Positions 13,929 to 22,899 of a DNA stretch of 37,875 nt are shown here, one piece after another (within the stretch, counting starts at the first letter, position 1; each line of letters begins with the position of its first letter). Below the pieces are notes generated by a model. It did not search any database, was not told the origin of the DNA, and saw only the letters and a list, made by a program, of their open reading frames with translations. Position numbers and translations under genes: made by a program. Source of the stretch: Verrucomicrobiota bacterium (GTDB lineage Bacteria > Verrucomicrobiota > Verrucomicrobiia > Limisphaerales > JADLHS01); assembly GCA_025350905.1 (NCBI GenBank), contig JANXWY010000428.1:1-37875 (forward strand). The letters run 5' to 3'.

Positions 13929-14702
13929 TCATTCCGCGCCAGGCGGGCCGACACGTTCGGCGATCTGGTAGCGGATCATTCGCTTTTTCATCCAGCGCAC
14001 GGCCAGCAGATCGCCAAAGGATTTGAACAATCGATTCCACACGCCGTAATGAGCCTCGCCCGCCGTGCGCGGGTGATGACGGATGGCGACCTCCGCGACG
14101 GTGAAGCCTTCCATCTTGATGAGCGTCGGCAGAAAACGATGCGCGCCGTTGAAGAACTTGACGTCTGCGATGCATTCGCGTTTGAAGGCGCGGTAACAAC
14201 ACCCGGCGTCGCTGATTGTTTCACCGGAGAGTTGATTCCGCACCCAGTTGGCAATCTTGGACGAGGCAATCCGGATGAAATTATCGCCGTGGCGCCGGGC
14301 GGCGACGCGCGAACCGCAGACGCAATCGGCCCGTTGCAAACCGGCCAGCAGGTTCGGCAAATCCGCGGGGTCATTCTGTAAATCCGCGTCGAGCGTGACG
14401 ATTATGTCTCCTTGCGCGGCCTTCATGCCGGCCCAGAGCGCCGCCGATTGCCCGGATTGGCGGGTGAAGCGCTGGGCGCGCAAGCGCGGTTCGGTCGCCG
14501 CGATTTTTTGCAGCAAGGCCCAACTGCCATCACTGCTGGCATCATCCGTGACGAGAATTTCGAACGGCCGCCCCAAAGGATTGAGCGCCGCACCAATGGC
14601 CGCGACCAGCGGTTGCAAATTATCCTGTTCGTTGTGGCACGGCAGTACGACGCTGATCTCAACCATGTTGGTGACGTTCATCCGGAATTCGGCTGCGGAC
14701 AT
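13929..14702 (-). CDS. Glycosyltransferase family 2 (DPM1/ArnC-like)
   Basis: ISVVLPCHNEQDNLQPLVAAI, ILVTDDASSDGSW, DIIVTLDADLQNDPADLPNLL, DAGCCYRAFKRE. Confidence 0.93.
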   Translation of the reverse strand: MSAAEFRMNVTNMVEISVVLPCHNEQDNLQPLVAAIGAALNPLGRPFEILVTDDASSDGSWALLQKIAATEPRLRAQRFTRQSGQSAALWAGMKAAQGDIIVTLDADLQNDPADLPNLLAGLQRADCVCGSRVAARRHGDNFIRIASSKIANWVRNQLSGETISDAGCCYRAFKRECIADVKFFNGAHRFLPTLIKMEGFTVAEVAIRHHPRTAGEAHYGVWNRLFKSFGDLLAVRWMKKRMIRYQIAERVGPPGAE

Positions 14703-14865
14703 CTTGCTGCCAGCGCTTTGCTGGGGGCAAGCGCAGATTCAACGGCCGGGCCGGGCTTTTGCCGCGCCAGTGCGCCCCAACGTTGCCCAGAATTTTTTTG
14801 ACAAGTCCGCAGGAATAGTGTTTCCTTCTCCCCGACGGAATGAAAACTGCGATTAATAAAATGCA

Positions 14866-15004
14866 AAAGCCGATGTGCGTCGGCGGGTGTACGTCCCGAT
14901 GGACGCGTCACTCTCTCGGCTTTGGCATCGCGGGCTTGAGTTCCTGATTAACGAACCCAACTTTTTCAAGAAACCCGCGATTGCCAGTCAATCGCGGGTT
15001 TTTT
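14866..15004 (+). promoter_or_regulatory. Candidate transcription attenuator/riboswitch-like leader RNA upstream of orphan gene
   Basis: 5' long hairpin closed by AAAGCCGA (14866-14873)/TCGGCTTT (14916-14923). Antiterminator-type pairing GGC-ATCGCGGG-CTTGA (14924-14939) with TCAAG-aaa-CCCGCGAT-t-GCC (14966-14985) is mutually exclusive with the terminator stem 14972-15000. No known riboswitch class recognised. Confidence 0.7.
14972..15004 (+). terminator. Rho-independent terminator
   Basis: AACCCGCGATTG-CCAGT-CAATCGCGGGTT, 12-bp perfect stem, 5-nt loop, followed by TTTTGTTTG. Confidence 0.92.
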
Positions 15005-15046
15005 GTTTGTATCCAAGAGAATCAACCAGTTTCAGCGAAAGGAAAA

Positions 15047-15394
15047 ATGATGAAGACGAACGACAACCGGAGCGCGACACCATTCGCTCCGGCGACGCTA
15101 TTGGCGCCGCCCGGACTCGCGGGCGGGGCGTTCCGGGGAATGGCCGCGACGGAGCTGGACCAGCTCAAGAACCGCTTGCTCGCCCGGGAGCTGGACCGCA
15201 CCACCAACCTCGAACAGAACGTAGGTTTACAACGCGCCGCCAATGACGCCGCCGCGCTCGCATGGCTCACCCCGTACCCGCTGCTGCTCTTACCGGTGCT
15301 CTTCGAGGAAAAGGCGCGGGCGGCGCGGCTCAAGGTTGGCCGCCAAGCCCTCATCCGGGAACGCAGCACCGGTTTGCTGTCGCTGGCCGAATGA
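15047..15394 (+). CDS. Hypothetical protein (115 aa) downstream of the attenuator
   Basis: RBS-like AAAGGA just before ATGATG; MMKTNDNRSATPFAPATLLAPPGLAGG...ELDQLKNRLLARELDRTTNLEQNVGLQRAANDAAALAWLTPYPLLLLPVLFEEKARAARLKVGRQALIRERSTGLLSLAE. Confidence 0.65.
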   Translation: MMKTNDNRSATPFAPATLLAPPGLAGGAFRGMAATELDQLKNRLLARELDRTTNLEQNVGLQRAANDAAALAWLTPYPLLLLPVLFEEKARAARLKVGRQALIRERSTGLLSLAE

Positions 15395-15446
15395 ACCCGG
15401 GCCCAAGAATTCCACGCCCTGCGGCAGGAAGTAGTCCGATCGGGCT

Positions 15447-15477
15447 GGGAGCGGCGTTTCGCCCGCCGCTCCCTTTT
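15447..15477 (+). terminator. Rho-independent terminator after the orphan gene
   Basis: GGGAGCGGCG-TTTCGCC-CGCCGCTCCC-TTTT, 10-bp perfect stem. Confidence 0.75.
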
Positions 15478-15621
15478 GCCCTCGGGCGATTCGAGGCCGA
15501 TCGGCCGCAACTCGGCAATTCTCATTTTGCGCCGGAGCGCGGCTGTGTCGGCCTCGACCAGCCGCACTCCTCAAGATGAAAAACACTGCCGCCACCGGGA
15601 TTTGATTGACCAGAATTCGAT

Positions 15622-16905
15622 TTGCCGCAAATGCTTGCTGCCATGCCCGACGCTGTCATTGCACCCAACCCTTGGATGATGTTGCCCTTTGGTATCTTGC
15701 TCGGGGCCATCGCGCTGGCGCCGTTGTGGTTTGCGGACTGGTGGGCCAAACATTACGCGAAAGTCACCGGCGCCCTCGCCGCCGTGACGCTGGGCTATTA
15801 CTTGTTCGACCTGCACGCCGGTCCGCGCGTGCTCGCCGTGGCGCACGAATATGTGAGCTTCATTGCGCTCATTGGCGCGCTGTTCGTGGTGGCGGGTGGC
15901 ATCCATATCTCGGTCAAAGGCGAAGCGACCCCTTGGGTGAACGTGATGTTTCTACTGTTTGGCGCGGGGTTGGCGAATGTGCTGGGCACAACCGGGGCTT
16001 CGATGCTGCTGATTCGACCTTGGATGCGGATGAACAAGTACCGGGTCACCGCGCATCACATTGTCTTTTTCATTTTCATTATTTCCAACGTGGGCGGCTG
16101 CCTGACGCCGATCGGCGATCCGCCGTTATTCCTCGGCTTCTTGAAAGGGATCCCCTTTTGGTGGGTGGCGGAGCACTGCTGGCCGATGTGGGCGACCGGC
16201 GTGGGTATCTTATTGGCCATGTTTTTCGTGGTGGACAGCTTGAATTTTCGCCGGGCGCCGCAGCCGATTCGCGAAAGGGAAACCGCGCGCGAGCATTGGC
16301 GGATTGATGGGTGGCCCAACGTTGGTTTTCTGGCGGCGATTCTGGGTGCCGTGTTCATCAAAGAACCATTGTTTTTGCGCGAGGCCCTCATGGTGGCAGC
16401 GGCGATGGGTTCTTACTTTACCACGGGAAAGCCAGTGCATGCGGCCAACCATTTCAATTTTCATCCCATCCGGGAAGTGGCCATTCTGTTTCTCGGCATC
16501 TTCGCCACGATGATGCCAGCGTTGGATTGGTTGCAGCTCAATGCCGCGAAACTGGGCGCGCCGACGCCCGCCTTTTTCTTCTGGGGCAGCGGCGGCCTTT
16601 CCAGCGTGCTCGACAACGCGCCGACCTATTTGAGCTTTCTGAGCGCCTTGATGGGGGCGGCGCAGGATTCGAACATGCAACACCTGCTGTCGACGCAAGC
16701 CGCCAATCTGGTCGCCATCAGCGTGGGCGCGGTGTTTTTCGGCGCGAATACCTACATCGGCAACGGCCCGAATTTCATGGTCAAGGCCATCGCCGACCAG
16801 CAAAAAGTCCGGACCCCAACCTTCCTGGGCTACCTATTCCGGTTCACGCTGCCGTTCATGGGCCCGATGTTATTGGTCGTTTGGTGGCGGTTCTTCCGGG
16901 GCTAA
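15622..16905 (+). CDS. Sodium:proton antiporter, NhaD/CitMHS-like
   Basis: Polytopic membrane protein; GGCLTPIGDPPLFLGFLKGIPFWW, SVLDNAPTYLSFL, GAVFFGANTYIGNGPNFMVKAIA. Start could be 15622, 15634 or 15643. Confidence 0.88.
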   Translation: MPQMLAAMPDAVIAPNPWMMLPFGILLGAIALAPLWFADWWAKHYAKVTGALAAVTLGYYLFDLHAGPRVLAVAHEYVSFIALIGALFVVAGGIHISVKGEATPWVNVMFLLFGAGLANVLGTTGASMLLIRPWMRMNKYRVTAHHIVFFIFIISNVGGCLTPIGDPPLFLGFLKGIPFWWVAEHCWPMWATGVGILLAMFFVVDSLNFRRAPQPIRERETAREHWRIDGWPNVGFLAAILGAVFIKEPLFLREALMVAAAMGSYFTTGKPVHAANHFNFHPIREVAILFLGIFATMMPALDWLQLNAAKLGAPTPAFFFWGSGGLSSVLDNAPTYLSFLSALMGAAQDSNMQHLLSTQAANLVAISVGAVFFGANTYIGNGPNFMVKAIADQQKVRTPTFLGYLFRFTLPFMGPMLLVVWWRFFRG

Positions 16906-16951: not shown

Positions 16952-18628
16952 ATGAGTGAGACCCCGACGTCACCGAAGCCAACGCACAACGAGATCATCA
17001 AGGCGGCGATCCCAACCCTCGCCGGCACCATTGCGGCCACGCTCGCGGATCCGAAGGCCGACCACTTCTCCGAGGACGACAATCAGTTCCTCAAGTTTCA
17101 CGGCTCGTATCAGCAGGACGATCGTGACCTGCGCAAGACGGGCAAAAAATACATCATGATGATCCGGGGTCGGATTCCGGGTGGGGTGATGACGGCCAGG
17201 CAATGGTGCGTGTTCGACGAGCTCGCGACGACGTACGGCAATAATACGCTGCGCATCACCACCCGGCAGAGCATCCAGTTCCACGGCGTGCTCAAGGGAA
17301 ATCTGCGACCGCTCATCAAAAGGATTAACGACTCGCTCCTCTCCACTCTCGCCGCCTGCGGGGATGTAAACCGCAACGTCCTCGCCCCGCCGACCCCCGC
17401 TTACACCCAGGCGCGCGAACAGGTTTTCCAAGATTGCCACCAAGTCGCGCTGGCGCTCGCACCCCAGACCAAGGCGTATCACTCGATCTGGATTGATGGC
17501 GTGCAACTCGACAACGAGGACGCGGTGAACCAGAACTTTGTGGACCCGCTCTACGGCAAAACTTATCTGCCGCGGAAATTCAAAATCGCGTTCGTCATTC
17601 CACCGGTGAACGACCTGGACGTTTTCACCAACTGCCTCGGCTTCATCGCCGTCGTCGAGAACGATCAGCTCGTCGGTTACAACCTCGCGGTCGGCGGCGG
17701 CATGGGACGCAGCCATGGGAACACTGTGACGTACCCGCGCCTCGCGGATGTGATTGGCTTTTTCCCGCCGGACAAACTTGTGGCCGTGGCAAAAGCGGTG
17801 TTGACGATTCATCGCGATTTCGGCGACCGCACCGACCGCAAGCACGCCCGGCTGAAATATGTCGTCGCCGAGCGCGGCGTGGATTTCATGCGCGCCGAAG
17901 TGAACCAGCGCGCCGGCCTCACGCTGGCCGCTGCGCGGCCCTATCGGTTCACGACGATGAGTGATCTCTACGGTTGGCGGAAGGCGGTGGATGGCACTTG
18001 GTTCCTCGGCCTGTTCGTCGAGATGGGTCGCGTGAAGGACGCGCAAAAAACCGCACTGCGCCAGGTGGCGGAAAAATGTGCCGGCATCGAGTTCCGTTTG
18101 TCGGCGAATCAAAACGTGATTCTGGCAAACGTGACGGAAGCCGACAAAACCGTCATCAATGCGCTGCTGGCGGCGCACGGAGTGAAGACGGAAAATCAGG
18201 CGTCGGTGTTGCTCGCCGCCTCGATGGCGTGCCCCGCCCTGCCCACCTGCGGCCTGGCCCTGGCGGAATCCGAACGCATGTTGCCCGGTTTGATCGAGCG
18301 CCTTGAAAAACTCTGCGCCGACCTCGGCCTCGGCGGCGAGGAAATCATCATCCGCTCGACCGGTTGTCCGAACGGGTGCGCCCGACCGTACATGGCGGAG
18401 ATCGCGTTCGTTGGCAAAGCGCCCGGCCGCTATCAAGTCTGGCTCGGCGGCAATGCGTCCGGCACGCGCCTCAACCGCGTCTGGAAAGACATGATGAAAG
18501 ACGCCGACATCGAAAACGAACTCCGCCCCGTGCTCGCGCAATACGCCAAGGAACGTAATGGCAACGAACGTTTCGGCGACTGGTGCGACCGGGAGTTGCT
18601 GAAGGAGCCGGCCACTGCAACCCGCTAG
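16952..18628 (+). CDS. cysI: Assimilatory sulfite reductase hemoprotein (nitrite/sulfite reductase family)
   Basis: LRITTRQSIQFHGVLKGNL, CGDVNRNV, MACPALPTCGLALAESER, RSTGCPNGCARPYMAEIAFVGKAPGRYQVWLGG (siroheme/4Fe-4S ligands). Confidence 0.93.
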   Translation: MSETPTSPKPTHNEIIKAAIPTLAGTIAATLADPKADHFSEDDNQFLKFHGSYQQDDRDLRKTGKKYIMMIRGRIPGGVMTARQWCVFDELATTYGNNTLRITTRQSIQFHGVLKGNLRPLIKRINDSLLSTLAACGDVNRNVLAPPTPAYTQAREQVFQDCHQVALALAPQTKAYHSIWIDGVQLDNEDAVNQNFVDPLYGKTYLPRKFKIAFVIPPVNDLDVFTNCLGFIAVVENDQLVGYNLAVGGGMGRSHGNTVTYPRLADVIGFFPPDKLVAVAKAVLTIHRDFGDRTDRKHARLKYVVAERGVDFMRAEVNQRAGLTLAAARPYRFTTMSDLYGWRKAVDGTWFLGLFVEMGRVKDAQKTALRQVAEKCAGIEFRLSANQNVILANVTEADKTVINALLAAHGVKTENQASVLLAASMACPALPTCGLALAESERMLPGLIERLEKLCADLGLGGEEIIIRSTGCPNGCARPYMAEIAFVGKAPGRYQVWLGGNASGTRLNRVWKDMMKDADIENELRPVLAQYAKERNGNERFGDWCDRELLKEPATATR

Positions 18629-18635
18629 CGCCATC

Positions 18636-18926
18636 ATGTCGGCCGGTCAAATCGCCAAAGCCAACGCCGAGTTGCGACCCCAGTCCGCACTCGACCGCGG
18701 GAATTCGTTTTCATTAGCACTCGGCTTCAGCCGGGTGAATCGCACGACGAAAGCGGGGAACGGTTTCAACCGTTTTCCGCGCGCCACCCCAACCAAGCCG
18801 TTAAAACGGCTGGGCCGTCGCACGCACCTTTTCACCGGGCTGAAGCCCGGTGCTAATGAGAGTCCGCTTGAAATTGCGTCGGCCGGTATCGCCGAAGCCA
18901 GGTCAACCCAAGCCAGGAGATTTTGA
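18636..18926 (+). pseudogene. cysH-like N-terminal remnant disrupted by a composite palindromic element
   Basis: MSAGQIAKANAELRPQSALD aligns with CysH MTADQITKANVELRNQSALE (14/20 aa); then about 165 bp of palindromic repeat; then SPLEIASAGIAEAR, similar to CysH SALEIVKWAIAQAR; then stop. Confidence 0.65.
18704..18864. repeat. Composite palindromic (MITE/REP-like) element
   Basis: Terminal inverted repeat TTTTCATTAGCACTCGGCTTCAGCCGGGTGAA ... TTCACCGGGCTGAAGCCCGGTGCTAATGA, with internal palindromes GAACGGTTTCAACCGTTTTC and AGCCGTTAAAACGGCT. Confidence 0.8.
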
Positions 18927-19204
18927 ATTTGAACTGGGTTGAACAACTGACGCCGGAGCCAAGAGTCAAATGGAATGATCGCTCGCGAGAGCCGTTCCAG
19001 CTCTTCAAGACCGTTGACGAAGAACTGGCGGCGACCACGGCGTTCTGGCGCAAGCGGACTCCGCTTGAGCGCCTGGAGTATTTGGAACCTACGCGCTGCG
19101 TGATCTATGGTGAAGCAGTCGTGAACGCGAAGTTGATTCGTTGCTACGGTTGGAGAAAACGGATCGAGGACGAATACGACCCAAAGAACATCGTTTATTT
19201 TTGA
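18923..19204 (+). CDS. Small hypothetical protein
   Basis: 93-aa ORF (TTG start) MNLNWVEQLTPEPRVKWNDRSREPFQLFKTVDEELAATTAFWRKRTPLERLEYLEPTRCVIYGEAVVNAKLIRCYGW...; resembles small X-RTPLERLE- proteins often found near toxin/nucleotidyltransferase modules (from memory). Confidence 0.6.
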   Translation: MNLNWVEQLTPEPRVKWNDRSREPFQLFKTVDEELAATTAFWRKRTPLERLEYLEPTRCVIYGEAVVNAKLIRCYGWRKRIEDEYDPKNIVYF

Positions 19205-19213
19205 AACTGAATC

Positions 19214-19876
19214 ATGACGGCCGACCAAATTACTAAAGCCAACGTCGAACTCCGGAACCAGTCCGCGCTCGAAATCGTAAAGTGGGCCATCGCGCAGGCC
19301 CGAGGCCGCGCCGTGGTTTCCACGAATTATCGCCCGTATGAAGCGGTCGTCCTGCATCTGGCCACCCAGGCGCAGCCGGACATCCCGGTGCTGTGGGCCG
19401 ACCACGGTTACAATCGCCCCGCGACTTACCTCCATGCCGAGCAGTTGAAGCAGTTGCTCAAATTGAACCTGAAAGCGTACGTGCCGAAGATGACGCCCGC
19501 CCATCGCGATGCGATCCACGGCCCGATTCCGACGACCGATCAGGAGGAAGCGTTGAAGGAGTTCAGCGCAGTAATGAAACTCGAACCCTTTCAGCGGGGC
19601 ATGAAAGAACTCGCGCCCACAGTCTGGATCACGGCGTTGCGCAAAGTGCAAAACCCCAACCGGGCGGAGCTCGACATCGTTTCTGAAGACCGAAACTTCA
19701 AATCAGTTAAAGTCAGTCCAGTCTTCTACTGGAGCGACGCCGAGATGGAAGCTTACCTCAAACAACACCACCTGCCCAACGAGTGGGATTACTTCGATCC
19801 CGCGAAAGCCGACGAGAAGCGCGAATGCGGCCTGCACGCGGCCTGGGGCGGGGAAAAGATGGGGTCGGGGATTTGA
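19214..19876 (+). CDS. cysH: Phosphoadenylyl-sulfate reductase
   Basis: PAPS-reductase-type fold with C-terminal catalytic KRECGLHAAWGGE motif; position between cysI and cysD. Confidence 0.9.
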   Translation: MTADQITKANVELRNQSALEIVKWAIAQARGRAVVSTNYRPYEAVVLHLATQAQPDIPVLWADHGYNRPATYLHAEQLKQLLKLNLKAYVPKMTPAHRDAIHGPIPTTDQEEALKEFSAVMKLEPFQRGMKELAPTVWITALRKVQNPNRAELDIVSEDRNFKSVKVSPVFYWSDAEMEAYLKQHHLPNEWDYFDPAKADEKRECGLHAAWGGEKMGSGI

Positions 19877-20009
19877 GCGCTGACGAATCTGCTTCAAATC
19901 GGCACCCGATCGGGCAGACTCACCGACGGCTGGCTTGAATCGATCCGGCAGCGACCCATGAACAATCCAAGCTCCCGGGCCGAAGCCGCCAAACCCTGAT
20001 AACTTTTTC

Positions 20010-20912
20010 ATGAGTTCGTATCATTTGGATCATTTGCAATATCTGGAAACGGAGGCGATTCACGTCATGCGGGAAGTCGCCGGTGAATTTGAGCGCCCAG
20101 CCCTGCTCTTCTCCGGCGGCAAGGATTCCATCTGCCTGCTGCGACTGGCGGAAAAGGCGTTCCGCCCGTGCGATCTGCCGCTGCCGTTTCTCAACATCGA
20201 AACCGGTCACGAGTTTCCGGAGTTGATCGCATTTCGCGACCGACGGGCGCAGGAGCTGGGCGCAAAGCTGATCGTCCGCACCGTCGAGGAGGCCATCAAG
20301 CAAGGACAGGCGCACGTGTCGCCCGGGGAGATCAGCCGCAATCGCCTGCAAACCCCGGTGCTGCTGGGGGCGATTGAAGAATTTCGTTTTGACTGTTGCA
20401 TCGGCGGCGCGCGCCGCGATGAAGAAAAGGCGCGGGCCAAAGAACGTTTTTTCAGTTTCCGCGACGCTTTCGGCCAGTGGGATCCCAAAAATCAGCGACC
20501 GGAGATTTGGAATCTTTACAACGCCCGCGTGAATCCCGGCGAACACATGCGCGCGTTTCCGCTGTCGAACTGGACGGAGATGGACGTTTGGGAATACATC
20601 AAGCGCGAGCAACTCGAAGTCCCCACGATCTATTTTAGTCACAAGCGGCAATGCGTCCGCCGCGGCGGACAGTGGCTGGCGGTTTCCGACATCCTGCCGC
20701 CGAAAGCCAACGAACCGGTGAAGGAAATGGTGGTCCGTGTGCGCACCATCGGCGACATTATCAGCACCGGCATGGTGGAATCGCCCGCCGATTCCGTGGA
20801 CGACATCATCGCCGAAATCGCCGCCGCGCGCGTGACCGAACGCGGCTCGCGGGCCGACGACAAGTCGTCGGAAGCCGCGATGGAAGATCGCAAGAAAGCG
20901 GGATATTTCTAA
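20010..20912 (+). CDS. cysD: Sulfate adenylyltransferase subunit 2
   Basis: LLFSGGKDSICLLRLAEKAF, GGARRDEEKARAKERFFSFRD, NWTEMDVWEYIKREQLEVPTIYFSHKR. Confidence 0.96.
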   Translation: MSSYHLDHLQYLETEAIHVMREVAGEFERPALLFSGGKDSICLLRLAEKAFRPCDLPLPFLNIETGHEFPELIAFRDRRAQELGAKLIVRTVEEAIKQGQAHVSPGEISRNRLQTPVLLGAIEEFRFDCCIGGARRDEEKARAKERFFSFRDAFGQWDPKNQRPEIWNLYNARVNPGEHMRAFPLSNWTEMDVWEYIKREQLEVPTIYFSHKRQCVRRGGQWLAVSDILPPKANEPVKEMVVRVRTIGDIISTGMVESPADSVDDIIAEIAAARVTERGSRADDKSSEAAMEDRKKAGYF

Positions 20913-20952
20913 CCCTTGCCGCGCGTCAAGGCTGCACTTACACTTTTGGCAA

Positions 20953-21168
20953 ATGAGTCAGACAATTACAGTCCGGCTGAACAAAGAGCTTTCCACCTGG
21001 CTGGAACGAACGGCGGCCCGCATTGGGGTTTCCCAGGGCCAGATTGTCCGCGAACAACTGGAGAAGGCCAAATCCACCAAAGCGGACAAGCCGTTCATGC
21101 GGCTGGCGGGAATCATGAAGGGCCCCAAGGATTTGTCCCAGCGTAAAGGTTATGCCGCCAAAACATGA
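20953..21168 (+). CDS. Ribbon-helix-helix antitoxin (VapB/CopG-like)
   Basis: MSQTITVRLNKELSTWLERTAARIGVSQGQIVREQLEKA; overlaps the start of the PIN ORF by 4 nt. Confidence 0.82.
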   Translation: MSQTITVRLNKELSTWLERTAARIGVSQGQIVREQLEKAKSTKADKPFMRLAGIMKGPKDLSQRKGYAAKT

Positions 21169-21566
21169 TTGGGATCGCCGACACGGGACTGCTGGTAGCG
21201 TTTATCAATCGTGGCGACAAACACCATGAATGGGCCGTAAACCTGGCCGGCCAATTGACGGGACCACTGCTCACCTGTGAATCCGTGCTGTCCGAATGCG
21301 CTTTTCATACGAATGCCAAGTACGTCTTTGAATTGCTGCGGTTGGAAATGGTCACTTTGAGTTTTGATTGCAACGATCACCTGTCTCAATTAGAAGCTTT
21401 AGCCACGCGCTACGCTGATCAGCGCCCCGACTTCGCCGACTGATGCCTCATCCGCATGAGCGAACTGTTCCCCAACCATCCCGTCATTACTGTTGACCGC
21501 GAAGATTTCCGCGTGTACCGGCGCAACAAACGCGAAGCCATTCCGTTAATTTGCCCACCAGAATAA
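21165..21566 (+). pseudogene. PIN-domain toxin (VapC) with an in-frame TGA at codon 93
   Basis: MIGIADTGLLVAFINRGDKHHEWA...RYADQRPDFAD-[TGA 21441-21443]-CLIRMSELFPNHPVITVDREDFRVYRRNKREAIPLICPPE-TAA. The same frame gives a standard ~133-aa PIN protein with conserved catalytic-region motifs on both sides of the TGA. Confidence 0.85.
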
Positions 21567-21579
21567 CGCCCTTTTCTCC

Positions 21580-22899
21580 ATGCCCCACTCGCCTCATCCC
21601 ATCGAAATTCTCCGCTTCAACACCTGCGGCTCGGTCGACGACGGCAAGTCCACGCTCATCGGCCGGCTGCTGTACGACTCGAAGTCGCTGATGGAAGATC
21701 AGATCGAGGCGCTCGAACGCTCGGCCGACATCACCGGCGGCGGCCAGATTAACCTGGCAAACCTCACCGACGGCCTGCGCGCGGAACGGGAGCAGGGCAT
21801 CACCATTGACGTCGCCTACCGCTACTTCGCCACGCCGCGCCGCAAGTTCATCGTCGCCGACACGCCGGGCCATGTGCAGTACACCCGCAACATGGTCACC
21901 GGTTCATCCACCGCCAACCTGGCCGTCGTCCTGGTGGACGCGCGCCAGGGCGTGATCGAACAAAGCCGTCGGCACACGTTTATCGCGGCCATGCTGGGGA
22001 TTCCGCACCTCGTCATCGCGGTAAACAAGATGGATTTAGTGGATTGGAATCGCGAGCGCTTCCTCGAAATCCGCGATCAGTTCGAGGATTTCCTGCCGCT
22101 GCTCGACGTGTTCAAGGACGTGAAGTTTATCCCCTTGAGCGCGCTGAACGGGGACAACGTGGTGGACGCCTCCAAACACACGCCGTGGTACGAAGGCCCG
22201 ACGTTGCTCGGGCATCTGGAAAACGTCCACATTGCGAGCGACTGGAACCTGAGTGCCTTTCGCTTTCCCGTACAATGGGTGAATCGCCCGAATAATCCGA
22301 CCGATAAAAAGCTCCATGATTTCCGGGGCTTGAGCGGACAGCTCGCCGGCGGGGTGGTGAAAGTCGGCCAGAAAGTCATGGTATTACCCAGTGGCCTCAA
22401 GAGTACGGTGAAGGAAATCTGGACGCTCGCCGGCCCGCTGGCGCAGGCGTTCTGCCCGCAATCGGTTACGCTCGTCCTGGAACACGACCTCGACATCAGC
22501 CGGGGCGACATGATCGTCGGCCTGGAAAATCTTCCGGGCATGAACACCGAACTGCACGCGCGCGTTTCCTGGATGCACCCGCGCCCGCTGCAGGCAGGCC
22601 GGAAATTTTTCCTCAAGCACACCACCCAAACGGTGCAAGCGATCGTGACGGCGCTGGAAAGCCGGGTCAACATCCACAACTTCGAAAGCGAACCCGCCCC
22701 GGGCGAACTCGCCTTGAACGACTTGGGTGAAATCCGCCTGAAAACCTCCAAGCCGCTGGTGTTCGACGGCTACACCGCGAACCGGCTAACGGGCTCGTTC
22801 ATTCTCATCGAACAGGGAACAAACGCGACCGTGGCGGCGGGCATGTTGTTTCCCCCACTGGAAGTCGTGAAGCCGGAGTACAACGACTTCGCAATCTGA
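21580..22899 (+). CDS. cysN: Sulfate adenylyltransferase subunit 1 (GTPase)
   Basis: FNTCGSVDDGKSTLIGRLLYDSK, EREQGITIDVAYRYF, ADTPGHVQYTRNMVTGSS, AVNKMDLVDW. Confidence 0.96.
   Translation: MPHSPHPIEILRFNTCGSVDDGKSTLIGRLLYDSKSLMEDQIEALERSADITGGGQINLANLTDGLRAEREQGITIDVAYRYFATPRRKFIVADTPGHVQYTRNMVTGSSTANLAVVLVDARQGVIEQSRRHTFIAAMLGIPHLVIAVNKMDLVDWNRERFLEIRDQFEDFLPLLDVFKDVKFIPLSALNGDNVVDASKHTPWYEGPTLLGHLENVHIASDWNLSAFRFPVQWVNRPNNPTDKKLHDFRGLSGQLAGGVVKVGQKVMVLPSGLKSTVKEIWTLAGPLAQAFCPQSVTLVLEHDLDISRGDMIVGLENLPGMNTELHARVSWMHPRPLQAGRKFFLKHTTQTVQAIVTALESRVNIHNFESEPAPGELALNDLGEIRLKTSKPLVFDGYTANRLTGSFILIEQGTNATVAAGMLFPPLEVVKPEYNDFAI

Follow-up and report, generated by a model that had tools for sequence, protein, structure and literature searches.

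A candidate ribosome-controlled attenuator with a leader peptide of mixed composition upstream of a small-protein gene in the Limisphaerales

The window, i.e. the whole stretch of 37,875 nucleotides from a verrucomicrobial contig (JANXWY010000428.1), carries a three-stranded RNA switch in front of a small gene. This switch probably acts as a transcription attenuator under ribosome control, with many amino acids being sampled simultaneously. The leader open reading frame (ORF), the alternation among the strands A, B and C, their geometry, the promoter and the one-of-each composition of the leader peptide are well supported by comparison of the homologous sequences. From these we infer ribosome stalling as the trigger, shortage of amino acids or charged tRNAs as the signal and an action of the small protein in that stress. 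With less assurance, we also lean towards a general shortage sensor that consists of leader mRNA and ribosome only, in which about one codon each for Trp, His and Cys at free positions, and at least one codon for most other amino acids except Asp, Glu and Tyr, would turn on one small protein.

Locus layout and distribution

All elements lie on the forward strand. The putative promoter (14798–14826), read from the sequence, comprises a −35 box TTGACA (14798–14803), a 17-nt spacer and a −10 box TTTCCT (14821–14826), the latter being below the bar of a generic promoter scan. Its layout is repeated before 49 homologous leaders, with TTGACA in nearly all of them and a median of 14 nt between the −10 box and the start codon. 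In the window the start codon follows 13 nt beyond the −10 box, and with a promoter so near the leader ORF (14840–14947; 35 codons, MKTAINKMQKPMCVGGCTSRWTRHSLGFGIAGLSS followed by the stop) is almost leaderless, without room for a Shine-Dalgarno site. The original prediction had missed this ORF. The ORF contains both the nested hairpin P1 (14875–14908), a possible pause hairpin with a conserved inner stem, and, in its last codons, strand A, the 5′ arm of the antiterminator (conserved core GGCATCGCGGG, 14924–14934). Strand B (CCCGCGATTGCC, 14974–14985), the partner of either A or C, is located 26 nt past the leader stop codon and is followed by strand C with its U run (14989–15004), the 3′ arm of an intrinsic terminator. 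The strings named originally were all found at their positions, namely AAAGCCGA at 14866–14873, TCGGCTTT at 14916–14923, A at 14927–14939, B at 14966–14983 and C at 14989–15004.

The regulated small gene (15047–15394) probably starts at 15050, with a Shine-Dalgarno-like AAAGGA just upstream. A possible terminator behind it (15447–15477), read from the sequence as a 10-pair hairpin and a TTTT run that is under the threshold of the terminator scan, suggests a one-gene unit and separates the small gene from the next gene, which encodes a CitMHS_2 transporter (15622–16905). A CitMHS_2 gene likewise follows the small gene in roughly one third of those loci whose flanking sequence is long enough. 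Further downstream, the window holds a sulfate assimilation cluster (16952–22899) with a sulfite/nitrite reductase, two PAPS-reductase-domain proteins of CysH- and CysD-like appearance and a CysN-like GTPase, as well as small ORFs at 18923–19204 and 20953–21168. A sulfur (cys operon) control, prompted by the Cys codons of the leader and the downstream sulfite and PAPS reductase genes, was rejected because those genes do not adjoin the leader in relatives.

The small gene, formerly regarded as an orphan, belongs to a family present in 38 of 57 sampled genomes of relatives, and further members were found in 27 loci titled Verrucomicrobia, Limisphaerales or Pedosphaera. Nearly all homologs are preceded by the same layout of promoter, ORF of 30–40 codons, hairpin, strand A, stop codon, strand B and strand C. 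A covariance model of the leader matched 152 of the 293 genomes of the order Limisphaerales at E ≤ 0.001, a set whose weakest matches include some other attenuators or leaders, and 125 of 320 genomes at E ≤ 1e-9; the small gene was located behind each of the best 30 matches. Outside the order it was not seen in the class-wide sample.

The product of about 113 residues is helical, and three helices were predicted by AlphaFold2 (pLDDT 80.8). Pfam and NCBIfam yielded no family for the window protein, no family was common to more than 2 of 49 members of the small-protein family, and a PDB fold search with the model gave no significant match. Relative to background, the protein contains little Cys (0.13), Met (0.22), Ile (0.30) and His (0.36). 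Such a composition would be expedient for a protein made under shortage, with the caveat that a compositional bias is usual in small helical proteins. Distant paralogs without this leader (L180, L181 and L186; L182 and L183) constitute a helical stress-related domain family lacking a Pfam entry. Their genes either immediately precede thioredoxin-like genes or are flanked by those of an apparent TetR regulator and an efflux lipoprotein. A related leader (MNLSTVKCVSTVNHASMGDFAMWVCVSVIERPVGGGGRSR) is present at about 170–320 of locus L100, where no small-gene homolog was detected; a transporter-like ORF, probably of the MATE type, lies about 300 nt downstream of it.

Leader ORF and alternative RNA folds

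Frame, start and stop of the leader ORF are kept through in-frame indels in the homologs. Of 40 anchored leaders, which represent six length classes, 38 have a distance from the start codon to strand A that is divisible by three, whereas the spacer between the stop codon and strand B (22–32 nt in relatives) does not vary in threes and takes every value of that range. One leader (L022) breaks the frame and another (L026) shortens the tail, and both still stop right at A. The leader stop codon of the window is positioned 9–12 nt past strand A, depending on the end chosen for A; in 39 of 42 homologous leaders it lies 8–11 nt past the end of the A core, and strand B begins 22–31 nt behind it. With this geometry, a ribosome at the stop codon would mask A. 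Conservation of the frame and the stop, with a spacing in threes up to A only, points to the ribosome, not a ligand, as the natural switch. Substitutions in 11 close pairs of leaders numbered 31, 36 and 68 at the three codon positions, a third-position excess (68 of 135), and the codon changes were synonymous in 40 and non-synonymous in 76 cases. As a rough pair count only of the leader peptide dN/dS, these numbers may be taken as modest support for selection at the peptide level.

The leader RNA folds with −68.3 kcal/mol, compared with −48.2 ± 4.1 kcal/mol for shuffled sequences (z −4.9). The B:C helix, with 17 pairs, was the sole terminator-like site on the forward strand in a scan of 14700–15700. 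The complementarity of A to B in the window was matched by none of 200 shuffled A strands, and among 49 homologous leaders the majority likewise surpassed shuffled A. Among 42 homologous leaders, 99.8% of the B:C cells were paired, and six of the pairs had changed on both sides. For A:B, where compensatory changes occur too, the share was 89.8%; slid-register controls were paired in about 30–48% for whole structures. In L026, B, A and C are altered together, as read from the sequences, and this concerted change along with the conservation of both A:B and B:C indicates that B truly has two partners. The mutual exclusion of the A/B and B/C folds proposed in the original prediction thus held, both pairings (14924–15004) being kept across the Limisphaerales, with compensatory changes in A:B as well as in B:C among the homologous leaders, for which it had suggested a covariation check. 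The pairing of strand A was borne out, but not its extent, since the CTTGA/TCAAG extension beyond the conserved core is not general. According to folding estimates, A:B would form in transcripts that reach just to B (mean 0.81) and B:C would prevail in the full-length transcript (0.84). A 1:2 protector stem sequestering A was not indicated, the pre-pairing of A being 0.72 versus 0.69 with shuffled upstream sequence.

Hairpin P1 is only moderately conserved (69% and 81% of cells paired) and varies in sequence and length; several pairs of its inner stem display changes on both sides. Neither an invariant loop core nor a conserved aptamer core was found in it among the homologous leaders, and the outer stem of AAAGCCGA, a part of the hairpin as first described, is not general among them. 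A W-x-R stretch within the leader (TGGCANCG in many leaders; about 14897–14905 in the window) resembles strand A; judging by its letters it could possibly pair weakly with B, which makes it a candidate second antiterminator arm. That the 5′ domain falls outside the known classes agrees with the Rfam search of the window, in which no family, T-box included, reached the gathering threshold. The best sub-threshold match was Thr_leader on the forward strand (22.3 bits versus a cut-off of 55), and such weak leader matches were rejected as terminator-driven and far under the cut-offs.

Amino acid composition of the leader peptides

Composition was evaluated in 97 leaders for column shuffles, which remove relatedness only in part, and in 102 distinct leaders for the joint count of Trp, Cys and His. 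With about 34 residues, a leader contains on average 16.9 distinct amino acids (97 leaders). Column shuffling lowers this number to 15.4 (z 12.9); real proteins reach 14.7 and the other forward frames 14.1–14.6. Trp, Cys and His are present in 91, 92 and 93 of the 97 leaders, respectively (70, 73 and 67 expected from column shuffles). Exactly one Trp occurs in 80 and one His in 82 of them, against 44 and 38 in the shuffles. In the forward frames +1 and +2, subject to the same descent and RNA constraints as the leader frame, the excess of these three residues is about zero. All three occur together in 87 of the 102 distinct leaders, but the share is only 4% in real 34-mers and 20% in shuffled leaders. 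About 15% of the leaders are without one of Trp, Cys or His; the worst exceptions are L005 and L017, and Trp is missing in L032, L039 and L044. In a held-out test with the prediction fixed beforehand, 14 of 16 unseen leaders carried all three residues, and inspection by eye of L197, skipped by the automatic scan, likewise revealed one of each. The last seven codons hold 1 of 105 Trp and 1 of 110 His; the side prediction of none in these codons was broken by one unseen leader (L207).

No run of a single amino acid exists in these leaders, and Trp, Cys and His are mostly present and located upstream of A. Many leaders have one Trp at a conserved place, and Cys is often found just before strand A. 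An internal Met is nearly always present, and His and internal Met are kept as evenly as Trp and Cys. Part of the evenness of Trp is due to descent, since this residue is mostly found at one position. Within a clade of 29 leaders, exactly one Trp is present in 29 and exactly one Cys in 27, while Trp, Cys and His occupy 3, 8 and 5 columns, respectively. Trp and Cys may also exchange places, e.g. NGY-AIW-RC becoming NGW-AIC-R(A/D/Y), and Cys shifts between the sister leaders L040/L041 and L128/L134. On the tree of the downstream protein such moves fall between close relatives, and the exchange from Trp to Cys appears in two separate lineages (L009, L056).

Upstream of strand A, the leader ORFs of the whole set hardly ever use codons for Asp, Glu and Tyr, the exceptions including D/E in L024/L206, and the dinucleotide GA accounts for 1.3% in codon positions 1–2 versus 8.8% across codon boundaries. 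Cysteine enrichment alone (3.9% versus 1.0% in proteins) was dismissed as evidence, its level being near that of random codons. A fixed C-terminal arrest motif of the SecM or TnaC type was not found among the leaders; the GIVGG conserved at the C-terminus is prescribed by strand A as well.

Proposed mechanism and relation to known systems

In the proposed mechanism, RNA polymerase would initiate a few nucleotides upstream of the start codon, with a ribosome trailing it through the 35-codon leader ORF. When all codons are read promptly, the ribosome at the stop codon would cover strand A, B would pair with C and transcription would end (OFF). When a charged tRNA is scarce, the ribosome would wait upstream, leaving A free to pair with B, so that the terminator would be blocked and the small gene transcribed (ON). 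As the leader encodes Trp, Cys, His, an internal Met and most other residues except Asp, Glu and Tyr, shortage of any of several amino acids could trigger the switch. Because a protector stem is lacking, a stall anywhere before A would expose A, and hence the position of a control codon would hardly matter. The drifting positions of Trp, Cys and His and the one-of-each composition favour such a many-amino-acid sensor. Next to the codon runs of known attenuators, a lone Trp or Cys codon may stall the ribosome weakly.

An ordinary terminator with chance complementarity can hardly be credited: intrinsic terminators are common, but this reading is refuted by the three-way conservation of A, B and C, and it is at odds with the occurrence of matches in 152 of the 293 Limisphaerales genomes (at E ≤ 0.001, some other leaders included) and with the small gene behind all 30 best ones. 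The original prediction had spoken of a riboswitch or other attenuator, and the two exclusive folds before a gene sustain the attenuator. A ligand-binding riboswitch, in which the 5′ nested hairpin would be an aptamer shifting the A/B/C pairing, is formally conceivable as a new class given that Rfam offers no match; it is nonetheless very unlikely, for the hairpin is contained in a frame-conserved ORF, is variable and without a large invariant core, and its outer stem is not general. The conserved leader ORF upstream of the small-gene relatives throughout the order argues for a leader-peptide attenuator instead.

Among the readings that involve the ribosome, a leader attenuator for Trp or Cys only, with few control codons because these amino acids are rare, would explain the conserved place of Trp in many leaders and the Cys just before A. 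We consider it improbable, as His and internal Met are kept just as evenly, Trp and Cys swap and move, some leaders lack one of the two, and codon runs of the kind seen in Leu and Val leaders of this order are missing. An arrest by the nascent peptide or by a ribosome-binding drug, with Trp, Cys and His mattering in some other way, would share the regulatory logic of the erm, msr and bmrCD leaders and would fit the distant paralogs beside apparent TetR and efflux genes; yet it is unlikely too, since no fixed arrest motif exists beyond what strand A imposes on the peptide, the key residues shift in position and drug sensing needs no joint presence of Trp, Cys and His. A sensor of tRNA damage, stalled by the loss of any of many tRNAs to anticodon nucleases of toxins or phage conflict, would use the same one-of-each composition and stall-anywhere design, but no linked defence genes were noted and Tyr and Asp codons are absent, which leaves this reading with little probability.

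Literature searches, in which few subscription journals were covered, returned no description of the element or of a leader for many amino acids. If the many-amino-acid reading is true, the element would be a general shortage detector that needs no protein sensor. Such a leader would predict the amino acids that the order Limisphaerales treats as limiting, and it would provide a testable signal for a small-protein family widespread in an uncultured group. Composition statistics of leaders can also expose attenuators that are missed by scans for codon runs.

The attenuators described so far respond to a single amino acid or to a few related ones via codon runs. The attenuators of amino acid operons (trp, his, leu, thr and ilv; Leu_leader, Thr_leader, His_leader and Trp_leader in Rfam) resemble the present element in their short translated ORF, in the one strand shared by antiterminator and terminator and in the decisive position of the ribosome. 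In our case, however, Trp, Cys, His and Met each occur at drifting places in lieu of a single-residue run, the leader precedes one small gene and no biosynthetic operon, and it scores below all Rfam gathering cut-offs. Unlike classic trp- or his-type leaders, it also seems to lack a 1:2 protector stem and has its stop codon 3′ of strand A. The order also harbours classic attenuators of the same build; Leu-rich ones precede leuA-like and cimA-like genes and Val-rich ones ilvB-like genes, these names being a reading of the protein sequences (L060 1510–1640, from the same genome as the window, contig C382; L091, L094, L095, L097, L102 and L092; L093 and L099). Several of their start codons directly follow the −10 box. 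The model match in L060 (C382:2732–2865) was discarded as a second copy of the element, for it adjoins a Leu-rich leader before a leuA-like gene and represents a positive control.

T-box riboswitches respond to uncharged tRNA by antitermination; here a presumably translated ORF would be used instead, in line with the missing T-box match. In the ermC/ermB, msrD and bmrCD leaders, stalling of a ribosome in the leader ORF opens expression (PMC8274638, PMC10314930, PMC4191407). These leaders need a drug and a particular stall site, whereas no such fixed site is present here. Multivalent attenuation is known from the ilvGMEDA and thr leaders, which respond to two or three related amino acids via codon runs. 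The present leaders would be similar in that one leader answers to more than one amino acid, but they comprise about 17 amino acids, the scarce ones about once each.
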